A DNA stretch of 64,000 nucleotides from Actinomycetota bacterium (GTDB lineage Bacteria; Actinomycetota; Acidimicrobiia; Acidimicrobiales; JAJPHD01), in NCBI GenBank assembly GCA_021325455.1, contig JAJPHD010000010.1, positions 186,001 through 250,000 on the forward strand, given 5' to 3'. The notes under the pieces were generated by a model. It was not told the origin of the DNA. It did not search any database and saw nothing but the letters and a program-made list of their open reading frames with translations. Each line of letters starts with the position of its first letter. Within the stretch, counting starts at the first letter, position 1. Made by a program: the position numbers and the translations under genes. Below are positions 36,259-37,899 of this stretch, piece after piece.

Positions 36259-36374
36259 AACGACGCGGGGGGAGCGCTTGACCCGGTCAGAGGACCTCTG
36301 CGAGCTCGCTTTCGCCCAGGATGGCACCCAGGGCCAGCGCCTCCACCTCGGGGTCGAGATGCTCCTATCGGTTG

Positions 36375-37427
36375 TCAAGTGGTAGCGGGTTGGTTCTCGA
36401 GGATGCGGAACAGCCGGCGGGCGAGGTAGCGCTTGAGGCAGCGGCGGGCCTCTCGCTTGCTCTTGCCTTCAGCGAGTCGCCGGGCGATGTAGGCCTTGGT
36501 CTGTGGGTCGTATTGGGCTCGGATTCCGACGGCCTGATAGAGGGCCCGGTTGAGCTGACGGTCGCCGCCCCGGTTGAGCCGGTGACGGTTCTGGGTCTGG
36601 CCAGATGTCGCTTCGATTGGGGCCACGCCCGCGAGCCGGGCGAAGGCGGCCTCGTTCCGGCAACGTCCCGGGTGGGACCAGGAGACGATGATCTGGGCGG
36701 CGAGGATGACTCCGACGCCGACTTCGTCGAGCAGCTTTGGTCCGGTCATCTCGACCATCGGCTTCATGGCTTCTTCGAGGTCGGTCGCCTGGGTGCTGAG
36801 ATGATCTATGCGCTGGGCGAGCGCCCGCATTGCGGTCTTCGTGCCGAACAGCTCAGGGTCACGGCTGATGTCGGGCCGTAGCCGAGAGCAGCGCTCGACG
36901 AGCTTGGTGAGGGTCAGGTCCCGAAGCTCCTCTCGTAGCGTCAAGGGTGCGGTGAGGATCAGGGCCTTGAGCTCGTTGATGGCCGCAGTGCGGGCCAGCT
37001 GGGCGCCGCTGCGGGCGACGAGCATGGCGCGGAGGCCTTCCCTGGCACCCCGAGCTCGTGGCGTGGACCACCGCTTGCGGCCGAGCACCTCCCGGGCGGC
37101 TCGGACGGCGTCGAGACTGTCGGACTTGGAACCGTCCTTCGCGGAGCGGGTGGACGGCCGGTCGAACTCGATAGCCCACTCGGCTTCCGCAGTCAGGGCC
37201 ATGCACAGGCCGGCGCCGTAACTCCCGGCGCCTTCGATCGACCACGCCCGCCGCTCCGAGCTGCTGTACTCGTCAGCCCAGCGGATCGCCTTCGCGTAGC
37301 CGGCGGTGGTGGTGGGGAAATCGGCACAAGCCAGCTCTCCTTGGGTCTTGGCGTCGACGACGGCGATGGTGATGCGGTCTCGGTCGGGGTCGACACCGAT
37401 GACATGGTCGACAAGCTCGGCGAGCAT
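36375..37427 (-). CDS. IS110-family DEDD transposase/recombinase
   Basis: A 350-residue recombinase. The RuvC-like domain carries the DEDD set D13 (VIGVDPDRD), E65 (SIEGAGSYG), D103 and D106 (KSDSLDA). The C-terminal Tnp domain has the catalytic serine S275 in ATSGQTQNRHR, followed by LNRGGDRQLNRALY. Both halves are intact, so the enzyme may be active. An AGGAGG ribosome site precedes the ATG. Enzymes of this family are guided by a bridge RNA encoded in the element's non-coding end. Confidence 0.95.
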   Translation of the reverse strand: MLAELVDHVIGVDPDRDRITIAVVDAKTQGELACADFPTTTAGYAKAIRWADEYSSSERRAWSIEGAGSYGAGLCMALTAEAEWAIEFDRPSTRSAKDGSKSDSLDAVRAAREVLGRKRWSTPRARGAREGLRAMLVARSGAQLARTAAINELKALILTAPLTLREELRDLTLTKLVERCSRLRPDISRDPELFGTKTAMRALAQRIDHLSTQATDLEEAMKPMVEMTGPKLLDEVGVGVILAAQIIVSWSHPGRCRNEAAFARLAGVAPIEATSGQTQNRHRLNRGGDRQLNRALYQAVGIRAQYDPQTKAYIARRLAEGKSKREARRCLKRYLARRLFRILENQPATT

Positions 37428-37457
37428 CTGGTCCTCCTGGCTGGTTGGATGGGGAAT

Positions 37458-37658
37458 GGCGCCAGCCTGGAGAGAACCGCTGCGGCAGGACTGTGATGGG
37501 TCACCCGAAGGGACAGGCTCCTGATTAGGCCAGCTGCGGAGGGCAGGCTGGCGCCGGCACCCAACGGACGTATCTCGACAAAGACACCGCGAACGGGTCA
37601 GCCAATCTGTGGGTCACGAAGGGCACCGGCGTCATCCTGACCGGCAACCAGGACCGGC
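37458..37658 (-). ncRNA. Predicted bridge RNA of the IS110 element
   Basis: Read on the minus strand, three structures follow each other: a 5' stem-loop (37653-37635, TCCTG/CAGGA); a target-binding loop closed by GCCGGTGCCC (37630-37621) and GGGTGCCGGC (37562-37553); and a donor-binding loop closed by a perfect 12-bp stem GGCGCCAGCCTG/CAGGCTGGCGCC (37555-37544 with 37469-37458). Each loop holds a UUCG-capped hairpin with one bulged U: GACCCGTTCGCGGTGTC (37599-37583) and GTCCCTTCGGGTGAC (37514-37500). Segments beside the hairpins match the insertion site and the element end. This is the published bridge RNA plan; folding was done by eye. Confidence 0.7.
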
Positions 37659-37746
37659 CCAGTGATAGTCACAGCCCATCTGCCTCCAGCCGGCCGACCA
37701 GGTCATCCAGGAGGTCGTCATCGTGCGGGTCCGCCATGTCAACACG

Positions 37747-37815: not shown

Positions 37816-37899
37816 TGTCGGAGGGGGGACTTGAACCCCCACGCCCTTGCGGGCACCAGCCCCTCAAGCTGGCGCGTCTACCTATTCCGCCACTCCGAC
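37816..37899 (-). tRNA. tRNA-Leu (anticodon GAG)
   Basis: An 84-base type II tRNA on the minus strand. The acceptor stem pairs GTCGGAG with CTCCGAC, with A as discriminator. The anticodon stem CCAGC/GCTGG holds the loop TTGAGGG, giving anticodon GAG, which reads CUC/CUU leucine codons. A long variable arm (TGCCCGCAAGGGCG) and a T-arm with GGTTCAAGTCC are present, as expected for leucine. The 3' CCA is not encoded. Confidence 0.95.

Follow-up and report, generated by a model that had tools for sequence, protein, structure and literature searches.

Two elements frame what is presently known of RNA-guided insertion of the kind considered here. The IS621-type bridge RNA is defined as an RNA of about 177 nt that comes from the left end of the element and is bound by the recombinase. 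In IS621 itself a CT core occupies positions 8-9 of both DNAs, with T9 almost invariant and the top strand cut after T9 (Durrant et al. 2024, PMC11208160), while Hiraizumi et al. proposed an additional handshake pairing, for which covariation was reported at position 7 (PMC11208158). In ISEc21 the RNA lies upstream of the transposase gene, with the match to the bottom strand placed before that to the top strand; insertion without target duplication and natural redirection are both described for it (Siddiquee et al. 2024, PMC11187229).

The window, i.e., the entire 64,000-nt stretch of an Acidimicrobiales genome analyzed here, carries an IS110-group element (Table 1) that is present in one copy in its genome, and whose ends were placed by means of the TGTGA left end and the AGGAGCATC right end conserved in its relatives. 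The transposase combines a DEDD (RuvC-like) domain with a Transposase_20 domain bearing the catalytic serine, as is characteristic of the IS110 family, the PF01548 match (5e-6) falling below the cut-off. Its residues D13, E65, D103, D106 and S275 align with D11, E60, D102, D105 and S241 of IS621 and are invariant across nine relatives; the protein matches the solved recombinases of IS621 (E 1.5e-7) and ISCro4 (E 9e-7). The 246-nt non-coding left end upstream of the gene assigns the element to the IS110 rather than the IS1111 group; the right end extends about 17 nt beyond the stop codon and is devoid of long subterminal inverted repeats, the termini displaying a short ATA/TAT pattern only. By similarity, the element is placed in the ISEc21-like branch of the group: the length of the protein lies in the range of that subgroup (345-385 aa), and the empty sites of the relatives are free of duplicated bases. 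A search of viral contigs with the profile and with the DNA pattern of the donor guide recovered no relatives, only seven chance matches.

Table 1. Coordinates of the element, its predicted RNA and its target in the window
Feature	Coordinates	Strand	Remarks
IS110-group element, 1316 bp	36358-37673	minus	T (position 9, 37673) to C (position 8, 36358)
IS110 transposase/recombinase, 350 aa	36375-37427	minus	PF02371 3e-18; PF01548 5e-6
Left target CAGATGGGC, positions 0-8	37674-37682	minus	host DNA
Right target TCGAC, positions 9-13	36353-36357	minus	host DNA
-35-like box TTGACA near right end	36373-36378	minus	TTGAC in 23/25 relatives
-10-like box GACTAT at left end	37665-37670	minus	18 nt from -35 box in circular form
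Predicted bridge RNA: 5' stem-loop, target-binding loop, donor-binding loop	37458-37660	minus	5' end inferred
Target-loop closing stem, 5' side	37621-37633	minus	helices 1-2
Target-loop closing stem, 3' side	37553-37562	minus	helices 1-2
Left target guide CAGATTGGC, positions 0-8	37601-37609	minus	8/9 to left target CAGATGGGC
Target-loop hairpin, UUCG cap, bulged U	37583-37599	minus	helix 3; GACCCG-UUCG-CGG-U-GUC
Right target guide GTCGAG	37574-37579	minus	complement of CTCGAC (positions 8-13), 6/6
Target-loop handshake guide AT	37572-37573	minus	complement of donor positions 6-7 (AT)
Donor-loop closing stem, 5' side	37544-37555	minus	helix 4
Donor-loop closing stem, 3' side	37458-37469	minus	helix 4
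Left donor guide AGGAGCCT	37515-37522	minus	ungapped 7/8 match to right end AGGAGCAT
Donor-loop hairpin, UUCG cap, bulged U	37500-37514	minus	helix 5; GUCCC-UUCG-GG-U-GAC
Right donor guide TCACAG	37491-37496	minus	complement of CTGTGA
Donor-loop handshake guide TC	37489-37490	minus	window target positions 6-7 = GG

The element sits just downstream of a tRNA-Leu gene (37816-37899), where it breaks a frame of 44 codons that is open when 37737-37674 is rejoined to 36357-36287. This frame has no homologue in 118 genomes or in Pfam and therefore may not be a gene. A search among the relatives for an empty counterpart of the insertion in the window found none, the DNA matches being mainly to the neighbouring tRNA-Leu.

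A preliminary description of this DNA had read the leader of the transposase gene as two loops of one plan, each with a UUCG hairpin and one bulged U. Both hairpins are indeed found, at 37599-37583 and 37514-37500, and the segments quoted as guides (CAGATTGGCT at 37609-37600, GTCGAG at 37579-37574, AGGAGCCT at 37522-37515 and TCACAG at 37496-37491) occur at those coordinates. The layout is likewise as it had proposed: a target loop precedes a donor loop, and in each a hairpin is flanked by a left and a right guide, in the order known from the IS621-type RNA (PMC11208160). The leaders of the relatives align well, and the two-loop fold, which comprises five helices with 35 pairs in all across 24 sequences, is borne out by compensatory changes among these 24 relatives. 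Paired cells make up 92.0% as against 78.1% in shuffled data, pairs with both sides changed number 25 as against 15.3, and stem covariation is 0.452 as against 0.201, with 0 of 500 shuffles as good on each count; the signal is lost when partners are slid by 1-3 columns. The inner hairpins are the most regular part—helix 3 is 99.1% paired, with both sides changed in four of its five pairs, helix 5 is 98.8% paired, and the bulged U is kept in both across the relatives. The same modules appear on folding the window sequence alone with the guides held unpaired, and the free fold of this leader is moderately better than its shuffles (z -1.8 and -2.2). In Rfam, searched at the gathering score and with E up to 5, there was no match to a bridge RNA family, only tRNA and one opposite-strand chance match. 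A further pairing returned by RNAalifold, between the right donor guide and TGTGA at the left end, was dismissed because the latter stretch is upstream of the expected RNA start and is the donor sequence itself.

The relationship between guides and targets was followed in relatives with 40-64% protein identity, drawn from genomes and plasmids, whose ends were set by the conserved termini, TGTGA on the left and AGGAGCnTC on the right, independently of the target guides. The set comprises 28 non-redundant relatives for the left guide, 24 of them with both ends; three others with an atypical or broken left or right end (L161, L168 and L179) were excluded. The covariation of guides and flanks anticipated by the preliminary description is plainly visible. 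Across the 28 elements with distinct left guides, 209 of the 252 letters of the left target guide agree with the left flank of the same element, whereas permutation of the flanks gives 96.2 +/- 8.8 (maximum 143); the right target guide, taken as its reverse complement, agrees with its own flank in 122 of 144 letters in the 24 elements with both ends, whereas permutation gives 59.6 +/- 6.0 (maximum 90). Each observed value was reached in 0 of 100,000 permutations, figures that are not exact probabilities because related elements are not independent. The guides sit at the same alignment columns in all these relatives, yet vary with the flanks of each element. Identity is 0.83-0.85 at register 0, all remaining registers between -15 and +15 giving 0.15-0.38, and the edge of the left guide is sharp, position 0 matching in 22 of 28 elements and position -1 in 4 of 28, which is the chance level. 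Even among close relatives the guides differ and track their own flanks, and identical copies of an element at different sites retain guide-like flanks. The guides fit poorly in L186 and L189, and the automatic register was off by one in L005, L012 and L163; the last of these also displays, at 404-443, a perfect tandem duplication of the first 20 bases of its left end (TGTGATGGTCACCCCGCGGC).

In the window, GTCGAG complements core and right target (CTCGAC) at six of six positions, as had been claimed, and the rejoined site is the best fit in the genome to the 14-base guide target, with 1 mismatch as against at least 2 elsewhere. When the leader was shuffled 20,000 times with its dinucleotides preserved, a target-guide pair at the observed spacing arose 0 times, a donor-guide pair 27 times, and both pairs together 0 times.

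These observations bear on two other ways of accounting for the leader. It lies directly upstream of the transposase, and its fold as a single sequence is modestly significant, as might be expected of a structured 5' untranslated region (regulatory or an attenuator) with guide matches arising by chance; given that guides follow their own flanks in 28 elements, in a single register and beyond any of 100,000 permutations, we consider this exceedingly improbable. Alternatively, the matches might stem from capture of flanking sequence, or from the co-descent of element and flank, rather than from guiding, and some related elements do lie at related sites (the Streptomyces group, L180-L185 and L191). 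Yet the two guides relate to their flanks differently, the right one as reverse complement and the left one as same-strand copy, the matches end at fixed positions, and close relatives with different guides lie in unrelated genes (an IS3 transposase, an Xis-like gene and others), leaving this explanation with hardly any credibility. The preferred reading is thus that of RNA segments that guide the element to its target.

The sites of some relatives deserve mention in their own right. On Streptomyces plasmids, L180, L181, L182, L183, L185 and L191 occupy one conserved site (..TAAC/GGGGG). In several of these records a gene for an IS110 transposase, in the opposite orientation, is found a few hundred bases further upstream. 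Since 83 Streptomyces plasmids carry the left part of this site, the target of these relatives may be the outer end of a second IS110 element. The closest relative found, L178 (64% identity; 1200-2560 of a Rhodococcus plasmid record), breaks an IS3 transposase at its AMESFF codons; ISEc21 is published as targeting another part of IS3 transposases. L012 breaks an Xis-like gene (IPFIK..GHLIRF), and its left end, near 2798, has one T more than the rule.

Turning to the donor loop, TCACAG at 37496-37491 complements CTGTGA, the core plus the element's own left end, just as had been described. The earlier reading of AGGAGCCT as the segment that reads the right end also stands; its alignment as AGGAGCATCT with a two-base gap does not, the ungapped AGGAGCnT fitting 24 relatives. 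The gapped register was rejected, as in the ungapped one position 2 of the left donor guide (G, A or C) agrees with the donor in 24 of 24 elements (9.1 expected), and position 7 is T on both sides in all 24. At position 6 (37516 in the window) the guide mismatches the donor in 23 of 24 elements, its neighbours matching. Other elements of the branch have A or G as their base 9, with a right donor guide altered accordingly (TCACTG, TCACCG). The dinucleotides next to the right guides behave comparably: the handshake guide of the target loop matches at 46 of 48 positions as against 31.6 expected (24 elements), and that of the donor loop at 40 of 56 as against 27.5 (28 elements). Of the four handshake pairs in the window, three are of the Watson-Crick type and one is G-U. 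Because the covariation of guides and stems, the donor guides and both handshake dinucleotides fit the IS621 model, minus-strand 37660-37458 is almost certainly the bridge RNA (seekRNA) of an IS110-group, ISEc21-like element. This reading draws on what the DNA itself records, namely the covariation of guide with flank, stems and handshake partners, together with the rule for the junctions and the empty sites seen in relatives.

The preliminary description had further supposed a CT core shared by target and element. The left target match on which this was built holds (8 of 9, positions 0-8), but the shared core in the window is partly a coincidence, because 22 of 24 non-redundant relatives have a base other than T at target position 9; T is found there in just 2, and the right target guide matches base 9 in 24 of 24. 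At the level of the family, target and donor thus do not share a CT dinucleotide in the way of IS621, even if the window itself has CT on both sides. The left junction carries the element's own T9; as TGTGA was used to place the left boundary, the independent evidence on the junctions is that from multi-copy elements and empty sites. Before insertion, bases 8-9 were C8 G9 in L182, C8 A9 in L190, T8 T9 in L178 and T8 G9 in L012. The uninterrupted site of L178 is a gene for an IS3 transposase that 14 plasmids carry, the aligned copies agreeing at 149 of 150 bases. In both L178 and L012, position 8 is target-derived (T) on the left and element-derived (C) on the right. In three copies of one element in one genome, donor base 9 is A and target base 9 is G; in three copies of another element, these are G and T, respectively.

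The simplest single rule would place the switch of the resolved junctions between positions 8 and 9, without duplication of target bases, and therefore leave one shared base and not a CT core. On this rule, position 8 alone (C, tolerated opposite a target T) would act as the shared base in this branch. We see an even chance that crossover in this IS110 branch needs one shared base rather than a CT dinucleotide. Similarly poised is the form that this might take: the right target guide would read base 9 of the target and the right donor guide base 9 of the donor, with the RNA switching partner between 8 and 9, one base upstream of the IS621 top-strand cut. A two-base CT core as in IS621, with the free position 9 of the relatives reflecting repair or mutation after insertion, is unlikely in view of the pre-insertion sites of L182 (C8 G9), L190 (C8 A9) and L012 (T8 G9), the match of target position 9 to the right guide in 24 of 24 elements, and the A or G at donor position 9 of other multi-copy elements with matching donor guides. 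On its side are the T9 found on both sides in the window and the fact that a staggered cut followed by one-way repair could mimic the pattern. Having T9 on both sides, the window fits the one-base and the CT-core readings alike, and sequence does not separate a moved cut from one-way resolution of a heteroduplex.

A course of events can be proposed in which transcription, protein binding, circle formation and the chemistry are taken over from the work on IS621 and ISEc21. Were the element excised as a circle, its right end (TTGACA) would come to abut its left end (TGT-GACTAT), thereby creating a promoter for the RNA. The function of this putative promoter (TTGACA/GACTAT) we infer from Durrant et al. 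(2024); it would exist in the circle only, and a promoter consensus scan of the inserted form returned nothing. The bridge RNA would then bind the recombinase, and in its first loop the left guide would pair with positions 0-8 of the target's bottom strand and the right guide with positions 8-13 of its top strand, whereas the second loop would pair with the element's own joined ends. The two dinucleotides beside the right guides would aid strand exchange by pairing with the strand that comes in from the other DNA. One might instead regard the window element as a dead relic with an intact-looking leader, in keeping with its single genomic copy and one guide mismatch; with the 350-aa frame, all catalytic residues and all four guides intact, this is quite improbable.

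The mechanism of the bridge RNA is itself already known, and the window element adds one member to those that use it. What it illustrates is that, in a high-GC Acidimicrobiales genome, raw sequence is enough to recognize a bridge RNA and to predict its landing site, and its branch lends independent natural support to the handshake model at positions 6 and 7. What may be new here is the one-base core. If real, it would make target choice freer than in IS621, and sites not accepted by IS621 could serve these elements as targets, a point of importance for programmable recombination; it also raises a direct biochemical question, namely, where the strands are cut.

Among named elements, the closest found is ISEc21: a transposase of the ISEc21 family, encoded on an Escherichia coli plasmid, shares 35.8% identity across 97% of the protein. 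The window element differs from ISEc21 in its guides and target and in its Acidimicrobiales host, and donor-loop or handshake guides do not figure in the consulted passages on ISEc21 (PMC11187229). ISCro4 (solved structure 9t56), compared by protein, has a related yet distant recombinase (E 9e-7), and IS621 is likewise distant by sequence (E 1.5e-7). It is nevertheless with IS621 (PMC11208160, PMC11208158) that the layout is shared: the order of the loops, the four guides, the handshake guides, the DEDD and serine active site, the ATA/TAT pattern flanking the donor ends (GATAGGAGCATC/TGTGACTATC) and the promoter across the joined ends, here a predicted one. The departures from IS621 are that in this branch position 6 also covaries with its handshake partner (cf. 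PMC11208158), that target position 9 is free, and that the junctions switch between positions 8 and 9.
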